Assembly: GCF_016616235.1 (NCBI RefSeq) | Contig: NZ_CP067100.1 | Coordinates: 6,507,001 to 6,571,000, forward strand | Direction: 5' to 3' | Origin: Bradyrhizobium diazoefficiens | Lineage (GTDB): Bacteria > Pseudomonadota > Alphaproteobacteria > Rhizobiales > Xanthobacteraceae | DNA length: 64,000 nt | Shown here: one piece after another, positions 3,013 through 62,153 of the stretch | Position numbering within the stretch: the first letter of the stretch is position 1 | How the letters are laid out: each line of letters begins with the position of its first letter | The notes under the pieces: model-generated | Databases searched by the model: none | What the model was told of the DNA's origin: nothing | What the model saw: only the letters and a program-made list of their open reading frames with translations | Translations under genes and position numbers: made by a program

Positions 3013-4695
3013 ATGCGATCTGGAGTTCTTTCTTGGAATGCAGCAACAGTTGCGCTCGTTGCAAGCGGTGCGGTCAATTCGGCATATCTTAAGCCGGCAG
3101 TAAAACCCCCACCGGTGCTGTGGAGCTGGACCGGAGGATATTTCGGCGCGCACGTCGGCGGGGGCTATGGCCGGACATCATTCACGGATCCGTACGGTCC
3201 GTCACTCTATGGGGACCTCGTCGATACGCCAGTGTTCCTGCTGGGAGGTCAGATCGGTTACAATTGGCAGAAGGACCGCTGGGTCTTTGGCGTTGAAGTG
3301 GATGCCAGTGGCGCTGCGTCGGACGGTACCAACACTTGTCTTGCCGTTTCCGGGTCTGTTGTGAGCGCAACCTGCAATGCGAGTCCAAACGTCTTTGTCA
3401 CCGGCACCGGGCGCCTCGGTTACGGATTCGGCTCGCAGGGACATACGCTGGCTTATCTCAAGGGAGGTGTGGCCTGGCAACACAATCAGGGCGATGTCGT
3501 CAACAACCAGGAATTTAGCTGGGCGCCACAGAATGCAACTCATTTCGAGTATGGTCGGGTCGGCGGCACAATCGGCGCCGGCGTCGAGCAGGCGATTACG
3601 CCTGCATGGTCCGTTGGACTTGAGTACGATTATCTGTGGTTTGGTGGACCAGGTGTGGCAACCCCTCCGACCGCAAGGCTTCCGTTGGCAACCGTCCCAG
3701 CCAACATCACCCACCCGACCAGCAGCTATCATATCGGCAAAATTAGCCTAAACTACCATTTTGATGCCGACCCACGGATGCCGGCATGGTTCGACCGGCC
3801 GCTATACGGGGCGACGCCGCCCGTCAGCGCGCCGCCGGTTGCCTTCACTCGGGGTTGGTCGCAGGAAAGCGGCACACGCTTCTGGCTGAGTCGCGGAAAG
3901 TTTCAATGGGGCTTCGGGAGCGAGCTCGCATCAAGGCTCACCTATCACAAGCTGGATGGGATCTCCGGTGAGTTGTTCGAACGTGTGGACAGCCCATGGG
4001 GGATATTCCTGAAGGGCAATATCGGCGTCGGCCGCTTCAACAGCGGAAATGTGAACGATGAAGATTGGGGCGCGGGCTTCGCCTACTCCAACACGACATC
4101 GGGCCAGGCGAACGGAAGATTCATGTACTACACGGCCGATGCGGGTTACGATTTCTTGCGCGGTACCGCCTTCAAAGTCGGCGGGTTCATGGGCTGGACC
4201 TACTACGGCCAGAACTCTGACACGACAGGATGCACGCAGATCGCTTCCTCACCGCCATGCCGTCAAGCAGTTGGCGGAAAGATGGTCATCGGCAGCCAAG
4301 ACACTGATTGGAATGCGCTGCGCATCGGTCTGAGTGCTGAAACCACGTTGCTCGACCGCTGGCGCGTCAGCGCCGATGTTGCTTACCTGCCCTGGACAAA
4401 CTTCCAGGGCCGTGACAATCATCTGTTGCGAGACTTGACGTTCTTCAGCGATCAACGCGGGAGCGGTGGCGGTGGTGTGCAGGTAGAAGGTACTCTCTCA
4501 TATTTCCTCACCAACAATTTCAGCGTCGGTATCGGCGCCCGATATTGGGCCATGTGGACTCAAAAACATAGCAAGATACTCCCCAATGAAGCCCAACGGG
4601 AGGACAGCTCTCCTGTTGCCTTGGGGGTCTTTCCTGCGAACTATCGCATGGAGCGATGGGGCACGTTCCTGCAGGCCTCCTACAACTTTGATTGA
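3013..4695 (+). CDS. Two-part outer membrane beta-barrel protein
   Basis: A 560-residue protein with a hydrophobic signal segment at residues 1-24. Residues about 35-255 look like an Omp25/RopB-type porin-family barrel: WTGGYFGAHVGGGYG, GGQIGYNW, GTGRLGYGFG, AWSVGLEYDYLWFG, ending KISLNYHF. Residues about 280-560 form a second barrel-like region with alternating aromatic strands (TYHKLDGISGELFERVDSP, ADAGYDFLRGTAFKVGGFMG) and the end QASYNFD. Each half ends in a strand with a terminal aromatic residue, the usual signature for outer-membrane insertion. GAGGTGAG precedes the ATG. The common Omp25 proteins are only about 220-280 residues, so this is about twice the usual length and may be a fusion. 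A surface or adhesion role is possible; nothing in the sequence decides it. Confidence 0.85.
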   Translation: MRSGVLSWNAATVALVASGAVNSAYLKPAVKPPPVLWSWTGGYFGAHVGGGYGRTSFTDPYGPSLYGDLVDTPVFLLGGQIGYNWQKDRWVFGVEVDASGAASDGTNTCLAVSGSVVSATCNASPNVFVTGTGRLGYGFGSQGHTLAYLKGGVAWQHNQGDVVNNQEFSWAPQNATHFEYGRVGGTIGAGVEQAITPAWSVGLEYDYLWFGGPGVATPPTARLPLATVPANITHPTSSYHIGKISLNYHFDADPRMPAWFDRPLYGATPPVSAPPVAFTRGWSQESGTRFWLSRGKFQWGFGSELASRLTYHKLDGISGELFERVDSPWGIFLKGNIGVGRFNSGNVNDEDWGAGFAYSNTTSGQANGRFMYYTADAGYDFLRGTAFKVGGFMGWTYYGQNSDTTGCTQIASSPPCRQAVGGKMVIGSQDTDWNALRIGLSAETTLLDRWRVSADVAYLPWTNFQGRDNHLLRDLTFFSDQRGSGGGGVQVEGTLSYFLTNNFSVGIGARYWAMWTQKHSKILPNEAQREDSSPVALGVFPANYRMERWGTFLQASYNFD

Positions 4696-6663: not shown

Positions 6664-8061
6664 TCAATTCGCGATCGCAGCTGAGGTGGGATGTCGGAGC
6701 GATCGTCTGAGCTCAGCAAACTGCTGGAACATCACAAGCGTCGCGACCATTCCGGCGCCCAGCTCAGCGGTTGCCTGACTGGCCAACAGTCCGTTAAAGC
6801 CCGATATTAGTGGTAACAACAGTACGGCCGGTATGAAGAAATAGCAGTGCCTCGCCAAGGGCACAACCACACTAAGGCGTGCTCTCCCGAAGGACTGAAG
6901 CATCGACGTCACGAAACTCTCAATACCAAAAAGCCAAAAAAAGAGATGGAAGACGACACAGGTCAAGACGGCAATTTCCGTGACGTTCTCGCTATCGCTG
7001 AACAGCTTGACCAAAGGTCGGGCAAAGCTCACAACGGCCGCAGAATATGCAGCCGAAAGTGCGACACTCATGGAAAGCATGAGCTTTGCGGCCTTCAATA
7101 CGCGAGGCAGATCGCGTGCGCCCCAACCGAAACCCAGAACAGCTTGAGAGCCCATACAAAAGCCGGTGATAGGCAGTGCGCCGATGGTCAGCAATCGCAC
7201 ACCTATCCCTATCGCCGCGATGCAATCGTCCCCGAATGGCGCAGCAGCTCCGTACAAGAGCATAGACGCAATGGCAGATAAGATGCCCGTCATGGTCGCA
7301 GGCGCTCCAATAGACGCGATCTTCCTGATGCGACTTGTTCGCAACGAGATGTAAGACAGCTTGACGAGGACTATCCCGCGCAGCTTCGAAAAATGCGCGA
7401 TATAGAGGCTAATGGCAGCGATCTGAGATACCAGTGTTGCGAGGGCTGCGCCTCGCACACCGAGGCCCAGCAAGAAGATGAAGGCCGGATCGAGCACGGC
7501 GTTCAGGATGAAGGCGGTCATCATCGTCCACATGCTGAAGCGTGTGTTGCCCTCGGCCCTCACGATGAAGCCGTTGACGATGTTTAGAAGCATCAGGGTG
7601 TACCCGAACAAAAGCGTCGCCGCATAGTCGAGCACCACGGGCATGATAGTTGGAGTTGCCCCGAGCGTTACGAAGATCCGTCGCAAGTTTAGCAGGAGAA
7701 CAACCGTAAGCATGATACCGATCGGAGCGGCCAGAGCCAGTGCAGTACTCGCCCCTCTACTCGCCTCCAGGTACTCACCAGCACCAAGATGGCGAGATAT
7801 GAACGAGGCTGTTCCAACACCGATACCCTGACCGACTGCCGTCAGCAGGACGACGACAGGCAAGGTCATGCTGACAGCTGCGATCGCTTGCGCGCCAAGT
7901 GCGCCAACAAAGATCGCATTGACGGCCTGCTGTAGCGCGTTGATCGATAGGCCAACAATAGACGGAATCGCAAGCCGCAGGATAAGGCCCGACAGGTTGG
8001 GATCCGATAGATCGATGTTCTTCTTGTTTGCCATCACATCTCGAACGCTTTCGACGACCAC
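6664..8061 (-). CDS. MATE family efflux transporter
   Basis: A 465-residue protein with about twelve hydrophobic segments and the MATE layout of two similar halves. The first half has LAIPSIVGLSINALQQAVNA and VGALGAQAIAAVSM; the second has GAPATMTGILSAIASMLLYG and GFCMGSQAVLGFGWGA, which match the MatE domain. The frame begins at a GTG with AGGA upstream, 13 bases after the NRPS stop codon; MANKK at residue 10 is another possible start. MATE proteins export organic cations and small metabolites using a sodium or proton gradient. Placement directly behind the NRPS in one operon makes it the likely exporter of that peptide, which is inference. Confidence 0.9.
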   Translation of the reverse strand: MVVESVRDVMANKKNIDLSDPNLSGLILRLAIPSIVGLSINALQQAVNAIFVGALGAQAIAAVSMTLPVVVLLTAVGQGIGVGTASFISRHLGAGEYLEASRGASTALALAAPIGIMLTVVLLLNLRRIFVTLGATPTIMPVVLDYAATLLFGYTLMLLNIVNGFIVRAEGNTRFSMWTMMTAFILNAVLDPAFIFLLGLGVRGAALATLVSQIAAISLYIAHFSKLRGIVLVKLSYISLRTSRIRKIASIGAPATMTGILSAIASMLLYGAAAPFGDDCIAAIGIGVRLLTIGALPITGFCMGSQAVLGFGWGARDLPRVLKAAKLMLSMSVALSAAYSAAVVSFARPLVKLFSDSENVTEIAVLTCVVFHLFFWLFGIESFVTSMLQSFGRARLSVVVPLARHCYFFIPAVLLLPLISGFNGLLASQATAELGAGMVATLVMFQQFAELRRSLRHPTSAAIAN

Positions 8062-8074
8062 TTACGCATCCTGC

Positions 8075-11000
8075 TCATTCATGGATGACAGTGTCGCGGG
8101 CTCCTCCGAATTCGTCGATCGTCAGCAACAGCTCCTGCTGCAACACGGTGCAAAAGTTTTGAGTCACCTCATAACCGATCTGGGTTGGGTCATACCTTGT
8201 TTCAATTTGTAGAGCGCCAGCTTGATATCCAACATCGAACCAGAAGAGGTGACTCGCGGCCGCTTCATCCATGTCTTCGCCGATCCAGATTGGAGACGGC
8301 TCATGGGTCAGGAGGCGGCGCGGAAAATGGCGCTGCAAACCCGCTCGATAATTCAGTCCAATTTTGGGTAAGGGCAGACGATCGATCCGGCTCCGCACGG
8401 CTGGATCTCGGTTTAGGAATTTCAAGCCCCGGAACCCTATTCCCCTGCGCGGCAGGACATTGCGCTGGCGATTTATTGAATGAGCCCGATCGGGACGGGA
8501 CTCCGTTCCGGCGAGACTCAAGGAAAGCGGAACGAGTTCGCTGATGTGGCCAATGATCTGCGATGGATCAATATCTTCAAACAGCCGACCTCGGGTCGAG
8601 GTAAGGCTATCAATCCAGAGCGAATAGTTGCCGAAAACACGTCCACAGGCGCCGGATATGGCCGCAAGAAATACGTCGATGTCCTTACAATGCGCCGATC
8701 TGGCTGCAATATTGAAGAGATCAGCTGTCGCTTCTTTGCCAATCTCCAGATGATGCTTCGCCTGATCTTCCCAAAGGAATCGGCAATTCGCGTCATCCTT
8801 GCGGCCTTCAAGGCGTGCATAATGCAGCTCTCTAGCGGTCACGTCCGAAAAGCTCGCGCCGCCCGATGAGGTGTGGCTGACGTCCAAATTGAACTGATGG
8901 TAGTCGATCCCCTCCCAGTATTCGAGTTCGGCTGGCGCTTCGCGGTTCGCGTAGTGCTCAAGGCGCTTTAGCCATGAAGAGAGCATCTGCATGTTCTCGG
9001 GACTACTCACGGCCTGGCCTGAGCTAATCGCGTTGTAGGCCGAATCCAATGCTTCCAGGAACAATCGATAGCCTATCCCGTCCGCAACGAAATGATGCAT
9101 CAGGACCAGCAGATAGTAATCGCCGCTTTCCGATGTGCGGAAGGCTGTGACGTTAAGAAGAGGAGTCTGGCCGTCAAAACGAAAAATATGTTGACGTCTT
9201 GCTGAGATGCTCTCGATTGCCTTACGCTGCCGCAGGCTGGTCATTCCGACGAGATTGACCTCCTCCACGAGGCGTTCGGCCACCGAAGCTGCGATCGTCA
9301 GACGTAGGCCATCGTCGGTTCGGGCGATACGGAGCCTGAGGCCTTCGTGCCTATCCATAACATGGGCAAGGGCGCGCTCCAGCAGCGGGATATCCAGGAT
9401 CCCGCCGGGCAGAAAGAACAGATCGCCTATGTTGTAGTGCTCATCGAAGCCGACAAGAGGCTTCCAAGATGCGATCGCGGGGATAACTGGCAACGAGCCA
9501 TCCGCGGAAGTGACGGTATGGTGTGTAACCGTCGCTCCATCTGCCGCCAATTCCCTAATGGTCGGGGTTCGATAGAGTTGGTCAACAGTAAGATTCAGCC
9601 CGGCTGCGCGCGCCAGCGTGACGCAGCGCACGCTTAGAAGAGAGTCTCCACCGATATCAAAGAAGCTGTGGCCAATTCCAACCCACTTCGCGCCCAGTAG
9701 ATCCTGCCAGATCCCGGCAAGAAGACGCTCCTTCCTCGTACGGGGCTCAGCAGACAGACCAAGCCCGACGTCGCGGTAAGGAATGGACAACAGGTGAGCA
9801 CGATCTATCTTTCCGTTCGCCGTAAGGGGGATACTGTCAACCAAACGAAAGGCGGCGGGAATCATGTAGGACGGCAATGTGTGGCGCAGGTGGGCGACAA
9901 GATCCTCAGAGCATAGCCTGTCCCGCACGGGAACCAGGCTCGCGATCAAGTGACGATGGTCATCCATACCTTGCGCGACGACCGCGGCCTTTGCGATTGC
10001 CGGATGAGATTCAAGGGCCTTTTCGACTTCCTCCAGCTCAATGCGATAGCCCCGTACTTTGATCTGGTTGTCGGATCGGCCGCAAATCTCGAGAAGGCCG
10101 CTGGTTGAGATCCGTGCGATATCACCACTTCGATAAAGAACGCTGTATTGTCCGTCACCATAAGGATTCGGCACGAAACAACGGTCTGTCCGTTCCTGAT
10201 CCCGCCAGTAGCCGGCGCTCACGCAGTGTCCCGCGATGCAGAGTTCGCCGGCGGCTCCGACAGGGACTCTCTTCAATCTATCATCGAGCACGTAGAGTTT
10301 GACGTTATCGATTGGATGCCCAACCGGGACGAGCGACGAGCCGTCGTCGGCATCCGATGTTTTGTAGATCGAGGCATTGGAGGCACATTCCGTAGCGCCA
10401 TAGAAATTCCACAACGGCACATCCGGGAAAAGCGCACGCCAGCGAACCGGGAGCGAGGACGGCATCGGTTCAGCGCTGCATGTGACCAGCCGTAGGGAGG
10501 TGGCGCGCCGCTGCCGTTCTTGGGAAGCAATGAGGCCGGTCAGGACCGACGGCGAAGCAAATAAATGCGTCGCGCGACATCTCGCCAACGTGCTCAACAG
10601 CAGATCTGGATCCAGCAACTGCTCCCGGGTCAGGATCAGCGTAGACACACCTCTCAGAAGCCCCCCGAAGTATTCCCAAGCCGACGCAACAAGTGATGCG
10701 GACTTCTGGACAACCATTACGTCGGACTTGTCGAAGGGAGCGCTTCGCCACATCCAGTGCAGCCGATTGAGAATTGCCGATTCCGGTATCAGGACCCCCT
10801 TCGCCTTTCCGGTTGAGGACGAGGTGTATATAAGGCTCGCAATTCCTCCATCTGACGGTGTGTCGATGCGCTCAGAATGGTGCGCGGACGTGCCGTACCC
10901 TTCTAGGTCCAACAAAGAAATCGACGGAGTGTCAAAGCCAAGGTCAATGGCACTTGCGTGAACCAGACGCTTTGGCTGACTATCTCGCAGGACATCTTCG

Positions 11001-14000
11001 ATCCGTTCACGTGGATAATCCGGCGATATAGGGACAACGATAGACCGCAAGGCTCGTGCCGCGAGAATAACAGCGGCCACGTCAGGCGACCGGTCGACCA
11101 GCAAGGCGACCCTATCGCCGGCGCCGACGTCAGACGCCTGCAGTAGCGACCGGACTGCTGTTACGCGCTCACGCAGATCGCCGAATGTGATCGCACCGAA
11201 ATCACCAAAATATGCCAGCTGGCTGCGATGTGAGGCGCTGATCTGCTCGAACGCTTCGACAATCGGACATTCAGTCGAGTATGACTGCGCCGAGCCATCC
11301 AGCGAGTCCAGCATAACGACATCCGTCGCGCTGAGGCAGCTCAGATCCTTAACGGGCGCAAGCGGATTCTCGACGCAGGCTGCAATCAGACAGCGCAGAT
11401 TATCAGCCATACGGCCGATGAGATCGCTGGAAAATATGTCTTCTGCATATGCTAGCTGCAGCGCAATTTCATCGCCCTGATCTTGTGCGTACAAGGTCAG
11501 ATCGAATTTTACATAGCCGGTGTCGTATTCGCGGAATGTCAGATCGAGCTCATGCTGACCAGCCGGCTCCGCAGCCTCGGAATACATGTTGAACATGACC
11601 TGGAAGATCGGCGATCGTCCCGCTTCACGACACAGCCGACTATCCCTTACCATCCAGCCGAACGGATATGCCGCATTTGCGATGGCATCGCTGACCAGGC
11701 CCTGGATGCGCAAGGCATGAACCGCAAAGGACTGACCGACATCGATCGCGGAGCGGATTGGCAGCATATTCAGGAAAAAGCCGACAATGTCGGCACTGCC
11801 GGCTTGATCCCGTACGACGTGCGGTATGCCGACGATAACGTCGTCTTGACCGCTATACATCCGCAGAAGCAGCTTGAAGCACGCGAGGAGGGTTGTCGAC
11901 GGGGTGCACCTGTGTTGGCGCGCAAACTCCCGTAACCGATTGGAGAGCTCGCTGCCGAGCAGCACGCCATGCGAGGCGCCGCGGTGAGAGTTTGTCTGCG
12001 GCCGCGCCTGTCCTGTTCCAAGCGAAAGCACCGGCGGATCATCACCAATCTGGCGGCGCCAATAGCTGCGTTGGTTGGCCAGCGCCTCTGGAGGCGCGTG
12101 CTGCTTTTCCCAGACCGCGTAGGTCGAAAGTGAGGCGCGGTTCTTTGGCAAAGGCGCCGCGGGATGTAGGTACGTTTGTCGAAGGTCTCTGAGCAGAACA
12201 GAGATCGACCAGGCATCTATGATAATTTCGTGAGCGCTGATCAGTATCAGATGGTGGTCAGGGCCAAAACGGATCATGCGCCCGCGAAACAGATTGCCCT
12301 GGCTGAGATCAAAGCTGCCGTTCAGCTCTGTTCGCCGCAACTCTGCGATCAGCTCCTCAGCTTCCTGCGCCGACAGATGAGATGCATCAGCCAATTCAAG
12401 ATTTTCACATTGCGGAGCATCAAAGAGCTGGACCGGACCATCCTCGTCGATAAAGCGTGCAGAAAGGGCCTGATGGAAGCGAACGACATCGGTCCAGGCG
12501 CGATTGAACCCGGCCAGATCGATGATGCCTCTTATTCGCAGGCCGCCTTGAATGATGTAGTTCTTGGCAGACGGATCGAGCTGGGAGAGAAACCACAGGT
12601 GTTCCTGAACTCGCGTCAGAGGCGATCGCGTAAGCTTTCCGTATGCGGGGCCTATGCATGGTTTGGACGCGCCTCGGGTCGAGATCGAAGCCGCAAGAGA
12701 TCGGATCGTTCCATTCAGGACGAGCCTGAAATCCGTTCTCACTCCGAATTCGGTCTGCAATTGGCCCAATATGAGCATAGCCCGTAGCGAGTCTCCACCG
12801 AGGCTTATGAAGGGATCATTCACACCAATGTTCTCAATGCCCAGAACGCCTGACCAGATTTGACACAGCTTGGCTTCAAGCTCTGTTCGCGGCCCCTCGA
12901 ATGGCGTCGGCATTGCAGGGCGAACACTGGTCGGGTCCGGCAATGCTCCAAAATCGACCTTTCCGTTTCTGGTCCGTGGAATACCGCCGACGTGGATAAT
13001 CCTTTCTGGGAGCATGTAGGTGGGAAGCGTTTCGGCAAGAAAGTCCAAAAGCTCGCATTGCGTCACTTCAGCCGGGGCTGACACATACGCGACGATTCGT
13101 CTCGATCCAGTGTCCCCCTCGGCACTGGTTATGTCTCGCGCCGTAAGCTTTACGCCTGCGCAGACGGACGCCACCGCGACAGCGCCACGTACCAAGTGAT
13201 GAGCGGAGAGCCGCGCCTCGATTTCTCCCAGCTCAATTCTGTGCCCGCGGATTTTGACCTGACGGTCCCGTCGACCAAGACATTCCAAAAGGCCATCGGA
13301 ACGAACGCGCCCAAGATCACCTGTCCTGTATAGGCGCCCGAACGGCGGGTCGTTCGAGAATGGGTTTGGCCCAAAGGCATCCTTGGTGCGGATGTGGTCA
13401 TTGACGTAACCAGTGGCGACACCAACACCGCTAACGCAGATTTCGCCGACCTCTCCCGTGTCGCACAGACGAGATCCATCGGTGATATAGACCTGAAGGT
13501 TCGCAATCGGCTTGCCGATCGGCACATAAGTGTCCGCCACCGCGGGAGGTACGGAAACCAGATTGTGCGTAACGCCGTCGGCGCACTCGGTCGGCCCGTA
13601 GTGGTTTAGAATGGGGATCTGCGGATATAGCGTAAGCCAGGCGCGCGCCAGCCCGGGTGTTAGGGGTTCTCCAACCGTGGAAATAATCCGCAACCTGTCC
13701 AGAGCTCGCTCAGCCGCCGCAAGGCGCTGCAGATATTCAACAAATACTGCAAGCATTGACGGGACGAATTGAGCAACCGTCACGCCGTACCCTTGAATTG
13801 CTTTGAGAAGAGATACTGGCGATTTCAGTGTCGCATCATCAATGATCGCGATACTGGCTCCGACGCAAAGCCCTGCCAGAAGCTGCCACAGCGAGATGTC
13901 AAAACAATGCGATGCCGTCTCGGCAATGCAATCCATTCGAGTGAGGGTCAGGGCATCAATTTTTGCCGCCAAATGATTGTTGAGGGCTGCACGCCCAATC

Positions 14001-14542
14001 ATTGCGCCTTTAGGCTGGCCCGTTGAACCAGACGTAAACAGAATGTAGGCGTGTCCATCCGCGCTCGATGATGGGACGAAGGACGACGGCTGGCGCTCAC
14101 GCAGCTCCGCCTCTATCGGCATGAATTGGATGGTGCCTTCGCTCCTCGACTGGAGCAGATTGAGCGAATGCTGCTGGTCGGGACCAATAATGAGGGCACA
14201 GCGACTCTGCTCAATTATGAACGACGTACGTGAAGCCGGTAACGATGGATCGAGCGGTAGGTACGTTGATCCGGCCTTCAAGATTGCGACGACCGCCGTC
14301 GCCCAGTCCAAGCCGCGCTCACCCCAATACCCGACGACAGCGCCCCGACCGCCGTGCTCTCGCAGCCTCCTTGCGAGGGCATCCGATCTTAGTCGCAGCG
14401 CCTCGTAAGTGAGTTCGTCTGCGCCGCTCCTCAGCGCAATTCTCTCCGGATCCGATCTTGCAATGCGATCGATCGACGTGGTCGCCTCGATCGCTTGACG
14501 TTCCACATACGGATTTCTTTCGGATAGATCTCGGCTAGGCAA
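8075..14542 (-). CDS. Nonribosomal peptide synthetase, A-T-C-A-T-(C/E)
   Basis: A 2155-residue NRPS. Adenylation domain 1: about 30-540 (FTSGSTGQPKG at 169-179, YGPTE at 315-319, NGKVD at 526-530). Carrier 1: 550-620, phosphopantetheine Ser585 in LGGDSL. Condensation domain: 640-1080 (VGFFLNMLP present) but its HHxxxDG motif reads HEIIIDA at 771-777. Adenylation domain 2: 1095-1585 (YTSSSTGKAKG at 1239-1249, NFYGATE at 1379-1385). Carrier 2: 1600-1670, Ser1634. The last domain, 1685-2155, belongs to the condensation superfamily with intact HHFVADG at 1816-1822; GHISELVPLSL and the later IGLNYR resemble epimerase-type motifs. No thioesterase is present. By-eye alignment to PheA gives pocket residues D, I, W, Q, S, V, H, D, G for domain 1 and V, A, W, F, T, S, F, S, N for domain 2; I do not assign substrates. 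The start is a TTG with GGGGGA 7 bases upstream. The product is unknown, at most a dipeptide or an acyl-amino acid. Confidence 0.93.
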   Translation of the reverse strand: MPSRDLSERNPYVERQAIEATTSIDRIARSDPERIALRSGADELTYEALRLRSDALARRLREHGGRGAVVGYWGERGLDWATAVVAILKAGSTYLPLDPSLPASRTSFIIEQSRCALIIGPDQQHSLNLLQSRSEGTIQFMPIEAELRERQPSSFVPSSSADGHAYILFTSGSTGQPKGAMIGRAALNNHLAAKIDALTLTRMDCIAETASHCFDISLWQLLAGLCVGASIAIIDDATLKSPVSLLKAIQGYGVTVAQFVPSMLAVFVEYLQRLAAAERALDRLRIISTVGEPLTPGLARAWLTLYPQIPILNHYGPTECADGVTHNLVSVPPAVADTYVPIGKPIANLQVYITDGSRLCDTGEVGEICVSGVGVATGYVNDHIRTKDAFGPNPFSNDPPFGRLYRTGDLGRVRSDGLLECLGRRDRQVKIRGHRIELGEIEARLSAHHLVRGAVAVASVCAGVKLTARDITSAEGDTGSRRIVAYVSAPAEVTQCELLDFLAETLPTYMLPERIIHVGGIPRTRNGKVDFGALPDPTSVRPAMPTPFEGPRTELEAKLCQIWSGVLGIENIGVNDPFISLGGDSLRAMLILGQLQTEFGVRTDFRLVLNGTIRSLAASISTRGASKPCIGPAYGKLTRSPLTRVQEHLWFLSQLDPSAKNYIIQGGLRIRGIIDLAGFNRAWTDVVRFHQALSARFIDEDGPVQLFDAPQCENLELADASHLSAQEAEELIAELRRTELNGSFDLSQGNLFRGRMIRFGPDHHLILISAHEIIIDAWSISVLLRDLRQTYLHPAAPLPKNRASLSTYAVWEKQHAPPEALANQRSYWRRQIGDDPPVLSLGTGQARPQTNSHRGASHGVLLGSELSNRLREFARQHRCTPSTTLLACFKLLLRMYSGQDDVIVGIPHVVRDQAGSADIVGFFLNMLPIRSAIDVGQSFAVHALRIQGLVSDAIANAAYPFGWMVRDSRLCREAGRSPIFQVMFNMYSEAAEPAGQHELDLTFREYDTGYVKFDLTLYAQDQGDEIALQLAYAEDIFSSDLIGRMADNLRCLIAACVENPLAPVKDLSCLSATDVVMLDSLDGSAQSYSTECPIVEAFEQISASHRSQLAYFGDFGAITFGDLRERVTAVRSLLQASDVGAGDRVALLVDRSPDVAAVILAARALRSIVVPISPDYPRERIEDVLRDSQPKRLVHASAIDLGFDTPSISLLDLEGYGTSAHHSERIDTPSDGGIASLIYTSSSTGKAKGVLIPESAILNRLHWMWRSAPFDKSDVMVVQKSASLVASAWEYFGGLLRGVSTLILTREQLLDPDLLLSTLARCRATHLFASPSVLTGLIASQERQRRATSLRLVTCSAEPMPSSLPVRWRALFPDVPLWNFYGATECASNASIYKTSDADDGSSLVPVGHPIDNVKLYVLDDRLKRVPVGAAGELCIAGHCVSAGYWRDQERTDRCFVPNPYGDGQYSVLYRSGDIARISTSGLLEICGRSDNQIKVRGYRIELEEVEKALESHPAIAKAAVVAQGMDDHRHLIASLVPVRDRLCSEDLVAHLRHTLPSYMIPAAFRLVDSIPLTANGKIDRAHLLSIPYRDVGLGLSAEPRTRKERLLAGIWQDLLGAKWVGIGHSFFDIGGDSLLSVRCVTLARAAGLNLTVDQLYRTPTIRELAADGATVTHHTVTSADGSLPVIPAIASWKPLVGFDEHYNIGDLFFLPGGILDIPLLERALAHVMDRHEGLRLRIARTDDGLRLTIAASVAERLVEEVNLVGMTSLRQRKAIESISARRQHIFRFDGQTPLLNVTAFRTSESGDYYLLVLMHHFVADGIGYRLFLEALDSAYNAISSGQAVSSPENMQMLSSWLKRLEHYANREAPAELEYWEGIDYHQFNLDVSHTSSGGASFSDVTARELHYARLEGRKDDANCRFLWEDQAKHHLEIGKEATADLFNIAARSAHCKDIDVFLAAISGACGRVFGNYSLWIDSLTSTRGRLFEDIDPSQIIGHISELVPLSLSLAGTESRPDRAHSINRQRNVLPRRGIGFRGLKFLNRDPAVRSRIDRLPLPKIGLNYRAGLQRHFPRRLLTHEPSPIWIGEDMDEAAASHLFWFDVGYQAGALQIETRYDPTQIGYEVTQNFCTVLQQELLLTIDEFGGARDTVIHE

Positions 14543-15061
14543 ACGCGTCCCCCATTCATCGCCTTCTGGGGCCTCAAATCAGAACGCCGATGATCTTGAT
14601 TGCGGGTATGGATTGGTCAGCCCCGGTATCGGCCAGACATAGTGGTGCCCTTTGGTCGTTTCTTAGCTTCCCGCCCTAGGCGTTCACCACTGTTTGCTCG
14701 ATGACGTCAGGGCAATACAGGCCGGACGTGTAGGGCCTCGAATTTGCCTTGGCACCTACCGGATCTTGTAGTCGACACGCGCCAATCTGCATGGCACCCG
14801 CAACCAACGGGTGCCTGCCACGGTTTGGTGCTCTCCTCACGAAAGCGGACTTGGGCGCTCGCCGGGCTGCGGATTCCTACGGCACCCAAGCGGTAAACAC
14901 CGATTGCGTACAACTGATTTGTGCCTTTGAGACGACGCCCAAGTCCTTGATGCGGCATTGAGGTCATGAACGTACCGGCAAAACGCGCCGCCTGATCACC
15001 TCGTCATCTAAATCCCGAACAGCTCATTTTACTGAGCCGGCAATTGAATGGAGATTCCTCA
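14543..15061. other. Divergent intergenic region, NRPS and speD
   Basis: 519 bases between the divergent NRPS and AdoMet decarboxylase genes. It should hold both promoters. I looked for a nod box and for a sigma-54 site (TGGCAC near 14746 lacks the -12 element) and found neither. Confidence 0.4.
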
Positions 15062-15454
15062 ATGATTATTGATAGCGACCAAGAAGTACCACCGCCTCTG
15101 GCCACCGGCGCGACGCATATGCTTATCGAGCTATGGGGAGCGAAAAACCTGGACGATCCGGACATTGCGGAAGACGCAATCCGAAAAGCCATCGATGCGG
15201 CGAGTGCAACATTACTCCACCTTCATGTTCATAAATTTTGTCCAGGCGACGGCGTCTCGGCAATAGCCTTGTTGGCTGAATCGCACATGACCTTACATAC
15301 TTGGCCTGAGAGGTCCTACGCGGCCGTTGATGTTTTCGTATGTGGCGACAGCAATCCTGCGAGCGCCGTGCCAGTTCTGGTTGAGGCTTTTCAGCCCGAA
15401 CGGTCGGACGTTCGCAGCTTCCGAAGAGGTGTGTCAATCAAGCCAACCGGCTGA
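15062..15454 (+). CDS. speD: S-adenosylmethionine decarboxylase proenzyme
   Basis: A 130-residue protein of the short bacterial AdoMet decarboxylase class (SpeH/SpeD, class 1B). The core LAESHMTLHTWPERSYAAVD has Ser74, the residue that is self-cleaved to give the pyruvoyl cofactor, with His79 and Cys94 (VFVCGD) as the processing and catalytic partners. GATHMLIELWGA near residue 17 matches the family start. I chose the ATG at 15062 because GGAG stands 9 bases upstream. The enzyme makes decarboxylated AdoMet, the aminopropyl donor for spermidine. No spermidine synthase gene is next to it. It is divergent from the NRPS gene and might feed that pathway, but this is only a suggestion. Confidence 0.9.
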   Translation: MIIDSDQEVPPPLATGATHMLIELWGAKNLDDPDIAEDAIRKAIDAASATLLHLHVHKFCPGDGVSAIALLAESHMTLHTWPERSYAAVDVFVCGDSNPASAVPVLVEAFQPERSDVRSFRRGVSIKPTG

Positions 15455-15633: not shown

Positions 15634-18600
15634 TCAGGTCGGCCGCAGCGCCTTGGAGCCGAGACCCAGCTCCTCGATCTGCTCGTTCCGCACGGACCCG
15701 GTCTTGGCACGGTGGTCGGTCGCTAGGACCACATAGACCGCCGGCAGCACGAACAGCGTGAACAGGGTGCCGACCGACATGCCGGCCACGACCACAAGGC
15801 CGATCGAGAAACGGCTGGCAGCGCCCGCGCCGGTCGCGGTCAGGAGCGGAATCAGGCCGGTCACCATCGCGGCCGTCGTCATCAGGATTGGCCGCAGGCG
15901 GATACGGGCCGCCATCTCGATCGCCGAGCGGCGGTCCAGCCGCTCGTTGATCTGGAGCTCGTTGGCGAACTCCACCATCAGGATGCCGTGCTTGGTGATC
16001 AGGCCGACCAGCGTCAGCAGGCCGACCTGAGTGTAGATGTTCATGGTGGCGACGCCGAAGAACAGCGGGATCAGCGCGCCGACGATCGCCATCGGCACGG
16101 AGATCATGATGACCAGCGGGTCGCGCAAGCTCTCGAATTGCGCCGCCAGCACCAGGAAGATGATGATCAGCGCGAAGGCGAAGGTGATCGCGAGCTGATT
16201 GCCCTCCTGCACATACTGCCGGCTGTCGGCGAGAAAGTCATGGCTGAAGCCTTGCGGCAGCTTCTTGGCCTCGCCTTCAAGGAAGTCGACCGCCTGGCCG
16301 ACGGTCACGCCGGGCATCGGCACCGCCGAGAACGTCGCCGAGTTGAGCTGGTTGTAGTGGGTCAGCGAATTCGGCGCAGTCGTAGTCTCGATTGACACCA
16401 CCGTCGATAGTGGCACTTGCTGGCCGGTGCTGGTCGCTACGTAGTAGTTGCCGAGCGATTCCGGCGAGAGCCGCTGAGCGCGTGGTACCTGCGTGATCAC
16501 CTGATAGGAACGGCCCTCCAGGTTGAAGCGATTGATGTAATTGCCGCCGCCGAGGAGCGCGAGCGCGCTGCCGACGTTCTGCATATTGATGCCGAGGTCC
16601 TGCGCCTTGGCGCGGTTGACGTTCACCTTCACGGTCGGCTGATTGAAGGCGAGATCGCTGTCGGAGACGATGAACATGCCGCTCTTGCGCGCGGCATCCT
16701 TCAGCTTCTCCATCTGCTCATAGACGGCCTGGAAACCCGCGGTCGAATTGATCACCATCTGCACCGGCAAACCGCCCGGGCCGCCCGGCAGCGGCGGCAG
16801 GTTGAAGGCGAAGGCCTGAACACCCTCGATCTTGGAGAGCTCGGCCTGGACCAGCGGCTTCAACTGAATCGAGGAGCGCTTCCGTTCATCCCAGGGCTTG
16901 AGCAGCATGCCGGCGATACCGTTCTGAGGGCCGTTGATGCCATTCAGCACGAAGCGCAGATCGGTCTCAGGGAAGCTTTGAAATTTCTTGTCGAGCTTGT
17001 CGCCATAGAAATCGAGATAGTCGTTGTTGGCGTATTTCGGTGCTTTGGTCACCGCGAACACGATGCCTTGGTCTTCCTCGGGTGCGAGCTCACTCGAGGT
17101 GTGCAAGTAGAGGAACCCAACGAGGCCAAGGATCGTCATGGCGAATAGGCCCGTTACCGCCTTGTAGTCAAGCGAGCGGTCGAGCTTGCGGCCGTACCAG
17201 CGCGTCAAGGCACCAAACACCTTGTTCACGAGCATGGCGAAGCGGCTCTCGTCGCTGTTCTTGAAGAGCACCGAGCACATCATGGGCGACAGGGTCAGCG
17301 CGATCACCCCCGACACGACCACCGAGCCGGCGAGCGTGAAGGCGAATTCACGGAACAGCGAGCCGGTTAGTCCACCGAGGAAGCCGATCGGGGCGTACAC
17401 GGCGGCCAACGTGATCGTCATCGAGACGACCGGGCCGACGATTTCCCGCGCGCCTTCCAGCGCCGCCTGCACCGGAGTCTTCCCCTCCTCCAGATGGCGA
17501 TAAATGTTCTCCACCACCACGATGGCGTCGTCGACCACGAGACCGATTGCGAGCACCATGGCGAGCAGCGTCAGCAAGTTGAAGCTAAAGCCCAGTACCA
17601 GCATCAGCGTGCAGACACCGATCATCGACAGCGGGATAGCGACGACCGGAACGATCACGGAGCGGAACGAGCCCAGGAACAGGAAGATCACCACGATTAC
17701 GATGATTACGGCCTCGCCTAGCGTCTTCTCGACCTCATCGATCGACGACTGGATGAACTTGGTCGAGTCGTAGGCGACCTTCATCTTCATCGAGGGCGGC
17801 AGGTTGCGCTCCAGCTCGGGAAACAGCGCGCGCACGCCCCTCACCAGCGTCAGTGGGTTGCCTTGTGGCGTCGCCTGCACACCGATGAAGATCGCATGCT
17901 CGCCGTTGAAGGCCACGCTCGCATCAGTGGTCTGCGCGGCAAGCTCGACGGAGGCGATATCCTCCATCCGCACAAAGCCGCCGTCCTTGGCCTTGACGAT
18001 CAACTTCTTGAACTGGTTGACGTCGGTCAGGCCCGTGTTCGTCGTGATGTTCGAGACGATCAAATAGCCCTTGGTCTGGCCGGCGGCGGACTGGAAGTTG
18101 TTTGCGGTGATCGCGGCCGCGACATCAGTCGGCGACACGTTGTGGCCGGCCATCTTCAACGGGTCAAGCCACAACCGCATCGCAAAGGTCTGGCCGCCGA
18201 GGATGTCGGCAGACGCGACGCCGTCCACAGTGGACAGCACCGGCTGCACCACGCGCGTCAGGTAGTCGGAGATTGCCGAGCCGGACAGCTCCTCCGAGGA
18301 GAAGCCGAGATACATCACCGCTGTCGTCTGGCCGGTGGTCTTGGTGACGACCGGATCATTGGATTCCTTCGGGATCAGATATTTGATCGAATTCACCTTG
18401 GCGAGCACCTCGGTGAGCGCCTGGTTCGGGTCGACGTTCAGCTTGATATAGACCTGAATCGTCGAGGTGCCGAGCACCGAGGATGAGGTGATGTAGTCGA
18501 CGCCCTCGGCGGAGGCGACCGCCTGCTCGATCGGCGTGGTGATGAAGCCCTGAACCAAGTCCGCGGACGCGCCGGGGTAGACGGTCGTGATGTTGATGAC

Positions 18601-18729
18601 CGTGTTCGACAGCTTCGGATATTGCCGTATCGGCAATACCATCGCCGCACGGAAGCCGATCAGCAGGATCAGCAGACTGACGACGACCGACAGGACCGGA
18701 CGCTTGATGAAAATGTCGGTAAAGGCCAT
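15634..18729 (-). CDS. RND efflux permease (HAE1, NolG-like)
   Basis: A 1031-residue inner membrane permease of the resistance-nodulation-division family. It starts MAFTDIFIKRPVLSVVVSLL, has the FIKRP start motif, the conserved IGLVVDDAIVVVEN motif of segment 4 with the paired Asp residues, and the large periplasmic loops; the second half repeats the fold (LITKHGILMVEFAN). It pumps hydrophobic or amphiphilic compounds with proton exchange as part of a tripartite system. A decayed membrane fusion partner appears just upstream, and nodM and a nod box lie before that. The order nodM, fusion protein, permease matches the nodM-nolFG operon of Sinorhizobium meliloti, so NolG is a reasonable guess. 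GC-rich codon use is higher than in nearby island genes. Confidence 0.9.
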   Translation of the reverse strand: MAFTDIFIKRPVLSVVVSLLILLIGFRAAMVLPIRQYPKLSNTVINITTVYPGASADLVQGFITTPIEQAVASAEGVDYITSSSVLGTSTIQVYIKLNVDPNQALTEVLAKVNSIKYLIPKESNDPVVTKTTGQTTAVMYLGFSSEELSGSAISDYLTRVVQPVLSTVDGVASADILGGQTFAMRLWLDPLKMAGHNVSPTDVAAAITANNFQSAAGQTKGYLIVSNITTNTGLTDVNQFKKLIVKAKDGGFVRMEDIASVELAAQTTDASVAFNGEHAIFIGVQATPQGNPLTLVRGVRALFPELERNLPPSMKMKVAYDSTKFIQSSIDEVEKTLGEAVIIVIVVIFLFLGSFRSVIVPVVAIPLSMIGVCTLMLVLGFSFNLLTLLAMVLAIGLVVDDAIVVVENIYRHLEEGKTPVQAALEGAREIVGPVVSMTITLAAVYAPIGFLGGLTGSLFREFAFTLAGSVVVSGVIALTLSPMMCSVLFKNSDESRFAMLVNKVFGALTRWYGRKLDRSLDYKAVTGLFAMTILGLVGFLYLHTSSELAPEEDQGIVFAVTKAPKYANNDYLDFYGDKLDKKFQSFPETDLRFVLNGINGPQNGIAGMLLKPWDERKRSSIQLKPLVQAELSKIEGVQAFAFNLPPLPGGPGGLPVQMVINSTAGFQAVYEQMEKLKDAARKSGMFIVSDSDLAFNQPTVKVNVNRAKAQDLGINMQNVGSALALLGGGNYINRFNLEGRSYQVITQVPRAQRLSPESLGNYYVATSTGQQVPLSTVVSIETTTAPNSLTHYNQLNSATFSAVPMPGVTVGQAVDFLEGEAKKLPQGFSHDFLADSRQYVQEGNQLAITFAFALIIIFLVLAAQFESLRDPLVIMISVPMAIVGALIPLFFGVATMNIYTQVGLLTLVGLITKHGILMVEFANELQINERLDRRSAIEMAARIRLRPILMTTAAMVTGLIPLLTATGAGAASRFSIGLVVVAGMSVGTLFTLFVLPAVYVVLATDHRAKTGSVRNEQIEELGLGSKALRPT

Positions 18730-19115: not shown

Positions 19116-20942
19116 CTATTCGACCGTCACGGACTTGGCGAGATTCCGCGGCTGGTCGACATCAGTGCCCATCACGACGGCCGTGTGGTAGGCTAGCAGC
19201 TGCACGGGGATCGCGTAGACCATCGGCGTGAAGACGGCAGGCATGTCCGGCAGCACGATCGTGGCGAACGTATCCAGTGTCGCCTCCTCAGCGCCCTTGG
19301 CATCGGTCAAGAGGACAATGTTGCCGCCGCGCGCTGCCACTTCCTGCATGTTTGAGACCGTTTTCTCGAATAAGCAGTCATGCGGTGCGATCACCACAAC
19401 TGGCACGGCCTCGTCGATTAGCGCGATCGGGCCGTGTTTGAGCTCGCCCGCAGCATACCCCTCTGCATGGATGTAGGAGATTTCCTTCAGCTTCAGGGCG
19501 CCCTCTAGCGCGATCGGGAAGCTCGTGCCGCGACCGAGATAGAGTACGTCGCGTGCTTTCGCGATGTCGCGCGCAAGCCTCTCGATCTGCGGTTCGGTGG
19601 TGAGCGCCGCCGCCATCAGGCGAGGAATTTCCACCAGGCCGCGCACCAGCTCGATCTCCTCATCCTCGGACAGTTCGCCGCGCGCCCTGGCGGCCGCGAC
19701 CCCAAGCGCCGCCAGCACTATCAGTTGGCAGGTAAAGGCTTTCGTCGAGGCAACGCCGATCTCCGGGCCGGCCAGCGTCGGCAGCACGGTTTCGCTCTCG
19801 CGAGCGATGGTCGACGTTGGTACATTGACGACTGCAAGTGTGTGTGCACCTTTCGCCTTGGCGTAGCGGAGCGCAGCAAGCGTATCTGCGGTCTCGCCCG
19901 ACTGCGAAACAAAGATCGCGAGATCACCTCTGCCCATGGCAGATTCGCGGTAGCGGAACTCGGAGGCGACGTCGACTTCAACGGGCACGCGGACAAAGCG
20001 CTCGAGCCAGTATTTCGCGACGGAGCCAGCATAGCTCGCTGTGCCGCAAGCGATGATCGTGATGCGGCGGACGTCTCTGAAGTCGAACGGCAGCTCGAGC
20101 GGTAGAGCAACGCGTTCGCAGGCTCCGTCGATATAGCGCGCCAGAGTCTGCTCGATCACCTTCGGCTGCTCATGGATCTCCTTGGCCATAAAGTGCCGAT
20201 AGTTCGCCTTGTCAACCAGGAGCGACGACGCACCCGATTTCAGCGTCTCGCGGCGCGCGACTGCCCCTTTGGCATCGTAGATGACGTGGATCTTGCGGGT
20301 AAGCACGGCGCAATCCCCGTCATCAAGATAAGTGATGGCGTCGGTGAACGGCGCGAGCGCAATGGCATCCGAACCGACATAAACCTCGTCATTGCCATAC
20401 CCGATCGCGAGCGGGGATCCCTTCCGTGCAGCGATCATGAGATCGTCGTGCCCCTTGAACAGGAATACCAGGGCAAACATCCCGCGCAGTCGCGGTAAGG
20501 AAGCTTTCACTGCCTTTTGGGGCGAGTAGCCCTCCCTCAGATAGGATTCGACCAGGTGCGCCACCACCTCGCTGTCAGTGTCGGAAACAAATCGAGCACC
20601 TTTCTGCTCAAGTTCGGCGCGCAACTCGCGAAAATTCTCGATGATTCCGTTATGGACGACCGCGACATTGTCCGTCGTATGCGGATGCGCGTTGTACTCC
20701 GTGGGCTTGCCATGAGTGGCCCAGCGGGTATGACCAATACCGGTGTGACCGGGCAGCGGACTGCGGCGGAGGCTGGTCTCAAGATTTTTCAGCTTGCCCT
20801 CGGCGCGCCGGCGCTCAAGATGATTGGCGTCGAGCGTTGCGACTCCCGCTGAATCATAGCCGCGATATTCCAGGCGAGTAAGCGCTTCAATCAACCGCTC
20901 CGCAACGGGTTGGCGCCCCAAAATGCCTACAATCCCACACAT
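19116..20942 (-). CDS. nodM: Glutamine-fructose-6-phosphate aminotransferase
   Basis: A 608-residue GlmS/NodM enzyme making glucosamine-6-phosphate from fructose-6-phosphate and glutamine, the precursor of the chitin backbone of Nod factors. The class II amidotransferase domain begins MCGIVGILGR with the catalytic Cys at position 2, followed by GHTRWATHG and DTDSEVVAHL. Two SIS sugar-binding domains follow (ACGTASYAG, FVSQSGETADT, LGRGTSFPIALEGALKLKE). The C-terminus is LAKSVTVE. I placed the start at MCGIV because the Cys must become N-terminal and GGGGGA lies upstream, although four more codons are open. A nod box at 21701-21748 points toward this gene. Because nodM is a paralogue of the housekeeping glmS, the symbol depends on that context. 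Confidence 0.88.
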   Translation of the reverse strand: MCGIVGILGRQPVAERLIEALTRLEYRGYDSAGVATLDANHLERRRAEGKLKNLETSLRRSPLPGHTGIGHTRWATHGKPTEYNAHPHTTDNVAVVHNGIIENFRELRAELEQKGARFVSDTDSEVVAHLVESYLREGYSPQKAVKASLPRLRGMFALVFLFKGHDDLMIAARKGSPLAIGYGNDEVYVGSDAIALAPFTDAITYLDDGDCAVLTRKIHVIYDAKGAVARRETLKSGASSLLVDKANYRHFMAKEIHEQPKVIEQTLARYIDGACERVALPLELPFDFRDVRRITIIACGTASYAGSVAKYWLERFVRVPVEVDVASEFRYRESAMGRGDLAIFVSQSGETADTLAALRYAKAKGAHTLAVVNVPTSTIARESETVLPTLAGPEIGVASTKAFTCQLIVLAALGVAAARARGELSEDEEIELVRGLVEIPRLMAAALTTEPQIERLARDIAKARDVLYLGRGTSFPIALEGALKLKEISYIHAEGYAAGELKHGPIALIDEAVPVVVIAPHDCLFEKTVSNMQEVAARGGNIVLLTDAKGAEEATLDTFATIVLPDMPAVFTPMVYAIPVQLLAYHTAVVMGTDVDQPRNLAKSVTVE

Positions 20943-21700
20943 GCGGATCAACATCCCCCATATTCAAGAATAGAGTTTTTGGAGCAGCTAGACTTTTCTT
21001 GAGACCGTCGATTGAAGGTGCTCAATGATTGTTGCGGATTTGGGTGCTCTGGATTCTGCGGCCAAATCCAAGCTCCGCCGGCCGAAGCGCGGTTCGGGCG
21101 AGCAGCATCGAATACAAGCATGTGGCGGCAGCAGGAGGCGGTAAGGCGCGTATGCGTGGCGAACGGAGAGCCATAGCAACTGCGACTCTTTGGAACAGCC
21201 ACAGTGTAGCCGCGGTCGGGGGTGCTTGGGCACGTCACCGCAAGTTGCCTCTGCAGGATCGATGACACTCGATCCAGATCGACGAGCCGCGAGGTGTCGA
21301 GTTATCTGCCGGCATGAACTCCATCCATTGGATCCGTTGAGAGCCAAGCGTCATGGCCCAGCCTCCTTCGCAAGAGATCGGTAAAGCGGATAGCTGGATA
21401 GTGGAATTCCATCTCGAAGCTGTCGCTCGTACATGGCACACACAAAAGAAGCCCGGCCGTCTTCGGCGAACGGGCAGGAGTCAACCTCGGCGGACGTCGC
21501 TGTTGCGACAGCTTCCGTCGACAGTGGCAGGGCCTACGGGCCGCAGTACCCGCCCAAGCACGTGGCCGGACTAAGATGCACTGGGTTGATGCTCGAGATG
21601 CACCGAAACTTCCCCCGGCTCTCGGCAAAGATCGAAACACCATTCTGATTGGCCGAAGGCTTTTCTCCAGACCAACGTCTTTCTTATGCGGGGCCTTATA
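20943..21700. other. Long leader between nod box and nodM
   Basis: 758 bases lie between the nod box and the nodM start. Minus-strand frames in it (for example 21302-21643) have shadow-like composition and match no family I know. A gene may have been lost here. Confidence 0.4.
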
Positions 21701-30434: not shown

Positions 30435-30482
30435 GAGTAGGTAAAATCGATTGTTTGGATGGAGCACATCGACACGATGGAT
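30435..30482 (-). promoter_or_regulatory. nod box upstream of nodD2
   Basis: The + strand has GGTAAAATCGATTGTTTGGA, then CATCGACACGATGGAT, the reverse complement of the nod box with all main blocks. It ends 10 bases before the nodD2 start codon. It points left, away from nodD2, and no nodulation gene follows. NodD can bind such sites to adjust its own transcription. Confidence 0.82.
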
Positions 30483-30492
30483 ACTTCGCCCC

Positions 30493-31401
30493 ATGCGTTT
30501 CAACGGTCTTGATCTAAATCTTCTCGTCGCGTTCGACGCTCTCATGACGGAGCCGAACCTCACCGCGGCCGCGCGGCGAATCAACCTGAGTCAGCCGGCC
30601 ATGAGCGCGGCCGTGGCCCGGTTGCGCACCTATTTCCACGACGAGCTTTTTACCATGATGGGTCGCAAGCTTGTTCCGACGCCGCGAGCCGAAGCGCTTG
30701 CTGCCCCAGTTCGCGAGGCTCTGTCGCACATCCAACTCTCCATTATTTCTCCTGACGGATTCAAGCCGGCCGAATCGAATCGCCGCTTCAGGATCATCCT
30801 TTCCGATTTCATGATGACCGTGTTTCTTCGAAAGGTCGTGGACCGCGTCGCGCAGGAAGCTCCCGCCGTCTCTTTCGACTTGCTGCCACCCGAAGAGGAC
30901 CCCGATCAGCTTCTCCGGCGCGGTGAGATTGACTTCTTAGTTTGTCCGGAATTGTTCATGTCGCGCACGCATCCCAAAATGCCGCTGTTTGACGAAAGCT
31001 ACGTGTACGTCGGCTGCCGCACGAACAAGCAGCTAAATAAGCCGCTTACATTAGAGAGATACCTGTCGACTGGGCAGGTTGCGGCCAAATTTGGGCGGAC
31101 GATCAGACCTTCGTTCGATGAATGGCTCTTGGTCGAGCACGATCTCAAGATTCGCATTGAGGTTGCTGTGCCGGGCTTCAGCTTGATTCCGCCGTTGATA
31201 ATGGGGACTGATCGTATAGCGACAATGCCATCGAGGATGTTCAAGCATTTCGAGAACACAATGCCCTTGCGAAAGATCCAAGCTCCGCTGCCGGTTTTTG
31301 CCTTCACCGAGGCCGTCCAGTGGCCTGCACTTCACAACGCTGATCCGGCCAGCATTTGGCTGCGGAGCATTTTTCTACAGGAGGCGTCCCGCATAGCATA
31401 A
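30493..31401 (+). CDS. nodD2: LysR-type regulator NodD, second copy
   Basis: A 302-residue LysR-type regulator. It starts [20 protein letters not shown], and its DNA-binding helix has [39 protein letters not shown] completes the NodD signature. The C-terminal domain is intact with no frameshift. NodD proteins sense plant flavonoids and bind nod boxes. The copy at the right edge of the window (63907) is closely similar over its visible part. I call this nodD2 because the other adjoins nodA in the nodD1 position. Confidence 0.9.
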
Positions 31402-38191: not shown

Positions 38192-38443
38192 TTGGGGGAT
38201 TCGCATCGCGTTGGGCCGACATAGTCCTGCGGAAGCGCACAGACTCTCGATTGGATTATCGGAGAGTCCAGAGCGAGCGAGAGATGAAGTTCGTTCATCA
38301 CTCATCCCCCATTTCCTGACGAACTAGAATGGAGCTTTTGAACAGCCATGCCGATCCAGCAACTGACGAACTATGTCAATGGCAACATTGGAGCCAAATG
38401 CAGCGCGCTCTATCGTGCTTTCTCCTGGGATCTTTGGGCTCGG

Positions 38444-60749: not shown

Positions 60750-60799
60750 GAGCTTCTCACCTCCTTGACGCGCACAGTTCCGCCTCGCCTCCAGGCCTG

Positions 60800-62134: not shown

Positions 62135-62153
62135 GGGGGGACGTCTCTTTTTT

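Follow-up and report, generated by a model that had tools for sequence, protein, structure and literature searches.

A two-module nonribosomal peptide synthetase gene with a MATE exporter gene and a divergent AdoMet decarboxylase-family gene in a Bradyrhizobium symbiosis island

Gene content of the locus

In this study, we analysed a stretch of 64,000 nucleotides of Bradyrhizobium diazoefficiens (the window; assembly GCF_016616235.1, contig NZ_CP067100.1), which occupies positions 6507001-6571000 of a single-contig genome of 7.67 Mb. The subject is a group of three genes in it, namely those of a nonribosomal peptide synthetase (NRPS), an exporter of the MATE family and a divergently placed SpeD protein of the S-adenosylmethionine (AdoMet) decarboxylase family. 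The profile search of the window proteins found all three above the Pfam cut-offs and at the places given in an earlier note on this DNA. The NRPS (8075..14542, minus strand) is a two-module protein of 2155 amino acids (aa) with the order A-T-C-A-T-E-like. The exporter of 465 aa (6664..8061, minus strand) lies 13 base pairs (bp) downstream and scored 111 bits with PF01554 and 180 bits with TIGR00797 (cut-off 147). The speD gene, recognised by profiles and alignment, runs the other way (15062..15454, plus strand; listed as an open reading frame from TTG 15044), and the divergent intergenic region between it and the NRPS (14543..15043) was covered by the upstream scan described below. Because models of nodA, nodB, nodC, nodI and nodJ match window proteins at 58217-63490, about 45 kb from the three genes, the region is a symbiosis island.

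Domains and motifs of the NRPS

In the profile search, each of AMP-binding, PP-binding, Condensation and AMP-binding_C matched the NRPS at two stretches, and no thioesterase domain was found anywhere in its 2155 aa, which bears out the earlier description of a two-module enzyme without a thioesterase. Adenylation (A), carrier (T) and condensation (C) domains follow one another in series, as in an NRPS; all coordinates below are on the minus strand. The first adenylation domain, A1 (residues 26-534, 12941..14467; profile and alignment), has the pocket D-I-W-Q-S-V-H-D-G-K, near-invariant among the 62 sequences aligned, in positions numbered after GrsA. In GrsA, the alpha-amine of the substrate is bound by Asp235, and A1 retains this Asp. 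The second, A2 (residues about 1105-1584, 9791..11230; profile and alignment), has Val at this position in the window, all 62 sequences having either Val or Ile there, and comparison with solved relatives aligned the Val opposite the Asp of LgrA. A2 lacks the alpha-amine-binding Asp by which A domains for alpha-amino acids are recognised. The unusual pocket residues once ascribed to both A domains were therefore found in A2, while A1 keeps its Asp. beta-Lysine, suggested as the A2 substrate by a match to CmnG, was set aside, as CmnG ranked 34th among the solved relatives.

Both carrier domains, T1 (residues 558-618, 12689..12871; profile) and T2 (residues about 1600-1665, limits approximate, 9548..9745; profile and alignment), have the carrier serine of the GGxS motif, within LGGDSLRAM and IGGDSLLSV in the window. 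The internal condensation domain (residues 640-1073, 11324..12625; profile) lacks the HHxxxDG motif of standard (LCL/DCL) condensation domains in 62 of 62 sequences. The alignment showed HExxxDA in its place (residues 771-777, 12212..12232), with HE and DA in every sequence, the second His being replaced by Glu.

The terminal domain (residues 1690-2155, 8078..9475) was assigned to the epimerase fold by sequence and fold comparison. Its best solved relatives were the epimerization (E) domains of PvdL, TycA and GrsA at 74-84 bits, against only 24 bits for the best chain matching through a C domain, and the top 13 Foldseek rows were entries with an E domain. A second structural comparison gave a small margin for E domains, and absence from that comparison excludes no family. 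The active-site motif is retained as HHFVADG (9077..9097; alignment), and HHxxxDG is present in 61 of 62 sequences, the window included. In epimerization domains, the Glu of the EGHGR motif has a catalytic role. None of the 62 sequences has this Glu; Leu, Ile or Met stands there instead, and in the window it is Leu (8603..8605; alignment with PvdL). The earlier call of an epimerase-like last domain holds for sequence and fold, and fails at the catalytic Glu.

The four condensation-family matches in the genome are shared equally between the window NRPS and the one other NRPS present (L089:6248-12724; L and G numbers are our handles for loci and genomes). The latter lies about 130 kb from the window NRPS and is likewise two-module, with 2158 aa in the order A-T-C-A-T-C and normal HHxxxDG motifs; genes for a phosphopantetheinyl transferase and a luciferase-like monooxygenase come next. 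A hand-over of the dipeptide to this second NRPS was rejected, because it begins A-T and is not a C-first partner.

Distribution and predicted promoters of the NRPS-MATE core

One scan of a wider collection of genome contigs yielded 73 loci. Close orthologues, defined by at least 64% identity, made up 58 of them (42 in Bradyrhizobium and 16 in Mesorhizobium, Ensifer/Sinorhizobium or Rhizobium), and a MATE match directly follows the NRPS in all 58. The NRPS and the MATE exporter are the conserved core of the locus. Of these loci, L029, L050 and L054 have a fragmented or partial MATE gene, and L056 and L062 a fragmented NRPS. More distant NRPS-MATE pairs, with NRPS identities of 36-38%, occur in Paraburkholderia, Sinorhizobium psoraleae and Actinokineospora. 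At 16 loci the gene next after MATE belongs to a single cluster, of which the member tested is a phosphopantetheinyl transferase; L022 has a seventeenth member, at another place. The window has no gene of this cluster after the MATE gene, and two PF01648 matches lie elsewhere in its genome.

Among 265 Bradyrhizobium genomes, the NRPS was found in 63, and 62 of these have nodC above the cut-off, nodC being present in 135 of the 265. The 63 include interrupted copies (G012, G175, G212 and G213); G191, at 35% identity, was left out.

In the open-access literature that we searched, we recognised no paper describing the NRPS locus or naming its product. The words nonribosomal and Bradyrhizobium do not occur in the main text of PMC10407285, nor do the terms peptide synthetase, adenylation and non-ribosomal in the main text of the M. 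huakuii 7653R bacteroid transcriptome study (PMC3973600). The NRPS-MATE locus is real and conserved, and it has not yet been characterised within that literature.

Promoters dependent on NifA and sigma-54 have the motif TGGCAC-N5-TTGC, with TGT-N10-ACA upstream. We scanned up to 700 bp before the NRPS at 62 loci with a weighting of our own (maximum 15); as a control, shuffling the letters of the window upstream region alone 300 times gave a 95% level of 12.8 and a 99% level of 13.5. Nine of the 62 loci reached 14 or 15 of 15 for a sigma-54-type site, and TGT-N10-ACA was present at each of them. Six are Bradyrhizobium loci with no SpeD within reach (L008, L009, L025, L030, L047 and L062) and three are in Mesorhizobium (L019, L021 and L022). 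The distant loci L059 and L064 scored 13.8 without TGT-N10-ACA, and 12 Ensifer/Sinorhizobium/Rhizobium loci have in common a weaker site, TGGCA(C/T)G-N4-TTGA, at 12.6-13.0. In the 700 bp upstream of the window NRPS the best score was 10.4, under the 95% shuffled level. Of the 25 SpeD-bearing loci, 17 have TGT-N10-ACA by itself, and by alignment the upstream DNA of the SpeD-bearing loci differs. We infer from these motifs that NifA may control the NRPS of the nine relatives, and the predicted promoters of these relatives favour a nodule role for the product, which the earlier note suggested to be a possible signal or defence metabolite.

SpeD and its linkage to the NRPS

SpeD scored 116 bits with PF02675 and 115 bits with TIGR03330, the AdoMet decarboxylase equivalog (cut-off 76), and is the single PF02675 match in the whole genome. 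It probably starts at ATG 15062 rather than at the listed TTG 15044, because a stop codon immediately precedes that Met in L039 and L080. Alignment with the T. maritima AdoMet decarboxylase showed that the equivalents of Ser63, His68 and Cys83 are kept; the expected pyruvoyl-forming serine is that of LAESH (codon 15281..15283, plus strand), and both prolines of the central region are kept as well. The catalytic residues of AdoMet decarboxylase, including this serine, are described in the consulted part of PMC10407285. Equivalog score and site residues point to the class-1b AdoMet decarboxylase family. That SpeD is already broken in L039 and in G033 (the same locus as L080) was considered and rejected, since the flagged stop lies immediately before the likely start Met.

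We counted as SpeD orthologues, among the 265 Bradyrhizobium genomes, proteins of at least 73% identity; a partial copy (G032), relatives at 63% (G021 and G081) and at 48-56% (G008, G068, G076 and G213), and matches below 37 bits in 11 further genomes were left out. The NRPS was present in 38 of 38 genomes with a SpeD orthologue and in 25 of the 227 others. Within nodC-positive genomes only, the counts were 37 of 37 with SpeD and 25 of 98 without (Fisher p 7e-17 with relatedness ignored, which overstates independence because the genomes are related). A looser cut of at least 48% identity gave the NRPS in 42 of 45 genomes; one of the looser matches, at 56% in G213, contains two TGA codons and stands in a genome with a broken NRPS. 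Where SpeD and NRPS share a contig, they are divergent and at most 3.9 kb apart in 37 of 37 cases (10 under 1 kb and 27 at 1.4-3.9 kb); in G175 they are on separate contigs. SpeD is within reach of the NRPS at 25 of the 42 Bradyrhizobium loci, some flanks being short. The linkage predicted earlier is thus conserved where SpeD occurs, and is absent from many NRPS loci, as weighed below. SpeD is a Bradyrhizobium-only partner outside the conserved core.

Remnants of a speE-like gene and constraint on SpeD

The earlier statement that no other spermidine gene is nearby agrees with the genome searches: the only candidates for a spermidine synthase partner in the window genome were two marginal PF01564 matches of 22-23 bits. 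A related speE-like protein used as query gave nothing at 1e-10 in this genome, and no speE-like remnant was found in the window (best E 2.9). The nearest SpeD relatives without the NRPS, in G021 and G081, sit in practically the same island directly before an intact speE-like gene, which scores 139 bits with PF01564 and falls under the speE equivalog cut-offs; SpeD relatives in L094 and L107 also adjoin an intact speE-like gene. Near SpeD, L003, L004, L012, L014, L020 and L042 retain remnants of the speE-like gene; L093 has a remnant as well but yielded no SpeD. Only three of the 265 genomes have the NRPS-associated speE type without interruption, namely G021 and G081 (no NRPS) and G175 (NRPS in pieces). 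In G182 the gene has two stops, and G004, G079, G161, G162, G165 and G190 keep about 60 of its residues within some 4 kb of SpeD. These cases represent few independent lineages, and some strains are in both genome collections. SpeD is apparently the survivor of a decayed speD-speE-like pair.

The one-ratio codon model gave an omega of 0.341 for SpeD (23 sequences), 0.295 for MATE and 0.303 for NRPS A1 (400 alignment columns). Fixing omega at 1 for SpeD lowered the log-likelihood by 39 units (-1904.0 to -1943.2) in the 23 sequences and by 12 units (-793.9 to -806.3) in the four-sequence clade of the window, differences that are somewhat overstated because kappa was also fixed at 2. L018, L036 and L039 are not in the 23-sequence model; L039 and L092 were left out of the SpeD alignment, L092 being another SpeD lineage whose excised stretch had stops. 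L034, with a stop, was left out of the MATE codon set and L056 out of the NRPS set. SpeD is under constraint although the genome has no convincing SpeE; constrained with its partner gone, it would therefore be retained for something.

Other arrangements of speD were also seen. G162, which has the NRPS-linked SpeD, carries a second speD-speE pair as well (L092:6002-7264), whose SpeE scores above the spermidine-synthase cut-offs. On a Phyllobacterium plasmid (L098:2663-8279), speD and then a speE-like gene are divergent from the gene of an 860-aa protein with an AMP-binding domain, a carrier-like GGDSL motif and a hydrophobic C-terminal half, so that speD stands beside a carrier-protein enzyme. 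In Rhizobium sp. BG4 (L103), speD is again followed by a speE-like gene, and the latter and a third gene match those of L098. A plasmid of Rhizobium sp. C104 (L099:4626-6405) has a radical-SAM gene that overlaps a speD with roughly 34% identity, and nifQ is about 4 kb away; spermidine synthase is not among the annotations of this stretch.

Neighbouring genes in the window

An RND efflux permease of 1031 aa (15634-18729, minus strand) lies tail to tail with SpeD, and glmS is at 19116-20954. The island also contains a diaminopropionate ammonia-lyase family gene (28838-30025, plus strand; NF006058 at 498 bits, above cut-off), followed by a LysR-type regulator gene (30451-31401), and YfmH-like and YfmF-like genes side by side (38348-41244, plus strand), both under their cut-offs. 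An outer-membrane beta-barrel gene lies beyond MATE in the window (3013-4695, plus strand), whereas many relatives have a shorter form (cluster c2) between the NRPS and SpeD; the differing places of this gene indicate that rearrangement has taken place in the island around the NRPS.

Interpretation

We tentatively propose, with a confidence somewhat short of even, that this symbiosis-island NRPS and its MATE exporter make and export a small modified dipeptide in nodulation, and that the divergent speD likely supplies decarboxylated AdoMet for the product. T1 would receive an alpha-amino acid from A1, and T2 a different substrate, for example a beta-amino acid, from A2, in which the alpha-amine Asp is missing. 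The bond between the two would be formed by the HExxxDA condensation domain. The terminal domain would then release the product to water or to an amine without epimerisation, a role suggested by the missing thioesterase, the missing C-first partner NRPS, the retained HHxxxDG and the lost epimerase Glu. The MATE protein, by its adjacency, would export the product. In SpeD-bearing Bradyrhizobium, the product of SpeD may give the molecule an aminopropyl or related group; this step is the weakest, because SpeD is dispensable to the locus in many lineages and no transferase is known.

Several observations weigh against this proposal. A SpeD orthologue is missing from 25 of the 63 Bradyrhizobium NRPS genomes, and SpeD is within reach at none of the 16 loci of other genera, some flanks being short. 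The A-domain pockets in the 62-sequence alignment are nearly the same with or without SpeD, so SpeD is not needed for the core product. The counts of SpeD and NRPS are not independent, because island ancestry is common to both. No aminopropyltransferase was found in the locus, and in L018 SpeD is altered beside the cleavage site (AESR for AESH, CAG for CPG). A nodule-type promoter above the 95% level was found at none of the 25 SpeD-bearing loci, nor in the window. For the putative loss of epimerase activity and the putative release role of the last domain, the indications are one residue and the gene content.

Several of these points, together with the speE remnants, suit the reading in which SpeD is a bystander: a speD-speE-like pair came by chance to lie beside the NRPS in the ancestral Bradyrhizobium island, speE decayed, speD is decaying more slowly, and NRPS and MATE make their product alone. 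We regard this as a serious possibility. Six loci have remnants of the speE-like gene beside SpeD, as do G182 and another six genomes (some of these strains coincide with those of the loci), and the NRPS does without SpeD in all 16 loci of other genera. On the other hand, the omega of SpeD (0.34) is close to those of MATE and the NRPS, and an omega of 1 fits far worse, in the window clade too, where SpeD is constrained although no speE remnant was detected in the window. SpeD also stays within 3.9 kb of the NRPS in 37 of 37 cases while the outer-membrane-barrel gene has moved. The only stop seen in L039 and L080 precedes the likely start, which shifts the odds slightly from a bystander toward a link. 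Overall, a functional link between NRPS and SpeD is slightly favoured.

Another possibility, which we consider improbable, is that SpeD has been neofunctionalised for another amino acid, such as arginine or ornithine, and that the terminal domain uses the resulting amine as nucleophile, so that the dipeptide leaves as an amide. Among the signs by which Li et al. recognised arginine and ornithine decarboxylases is a SpeD that has no SpeE, as set out in the consulted part of PMC10407285, and the terminal domain, with HHxxxDG and without the epimerase Glu, would suit such a release. The criteria for SpeD-derived decarboxylases in the same part of that paper are a missing conserved Pro (arginine decarboxylase) or four diagnostic residues (ornithine decarboxylase), at positions shown in its Fig. 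8. Against this possibility, SpeD scores above the AdoMet decarboxylase equivalog cut-off and keeps both prolines of its central region, and its relatives beside intact speE-like genes in L094 and L107 fit AdoMet as the substrate. Finally, a metal-binding product (siderophore or metallophore) with MATE as its exporter is very improbable: according to the consulted part of PMC12815270, antiSMASH showed 234 Bradyrhizobium genomes to have NRPS-siderophore clusters, among which the window NRPS could be counted, but its distribution tracks nodC, and no hydroxamate, catecholate or formyl-transfer family was found among the 26 window proteins scanned, in a scan that included no search aimed at them.

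Returning to the link between SpeD and the NRPS, its boldest form seems unlikely to us: a conserved, exported symbiosis metabolite, an epimerase fold turned release catalyst and a captured SpeD that feeds decarboxylated AdoMet into a peptide, which would together be the first NRPS pathway with its own SpeD. The core matters in its own right. NRPS and MATE track nodC in Bradyrhizobium, recur in Mesorhizobium, Ensifer/Sinorhizobium and Rhizobium, and have a NifA/sigma-54-type promoter in Mesorhizobium and part of Bradyrhizobium; this pattern points to nodules as the place where an uncharacterised molecule is made. In that case, the plant, or competing bacteria, would receive from bacteroids a peptide signal additional to Nod factors. 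For enzymology, the locus raises the questions by what means a C domain carrying HExxxDA makes a bond and which function a Glu-less epimerase fold serves at the end of an assembly line, both features being present in 62 of 62 sequences. SpeD, in turn, offers the case of a primary-metabolism gene that outlived its partner and stayed beside a biosynthetic operon.

Comparison with known systems

SpeD resembles the class-1b enzymes of T. maritima and B. subtilis in its family and its Ser/His/Cys site, and departs from them in having no convincing SpeE in the genome and an NRPS as neighbour. A precedent for an aminopropyl group on a peptide-type product is microcin C, whose MccD/MccE system is described in the consulted part of PMC10491745. 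That system uses a pyridoxal-phosphate (PLP) decarboxylase domain and a methyltransferase-type enzyme, whereas the window has a pyruvoyl-family SpeD and no transferase.

The terminal domain of the NRPS is like the E domains of TycA, GrsA and PvdL in sequence, fold and HHxxxDG; unlike them, it lacks the EGHGR Glu and ends the protein, in a genome with no C-first partner NRPS. The aureusimine synthetase AusA has the domain order A-T-C-A-T-R. Like AusA, the window NRPS has two modules with an A domain first, as for a dipeptide, and matches NF047350 at 798 bits, but this is far under the cut-off of 2500 bits, and the enzyme differs from AusA in HExxxDA and in an epimerase-fold end in place of a reductase. 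Terminal condensation domains of the rhabdopeptide type release peptides onto amines. They share with the window NRPS an HHxxxDG domain at the end of a thioesterase-less enzyme, whereas the terminal domain described here groups by sequence and fold with E domains.

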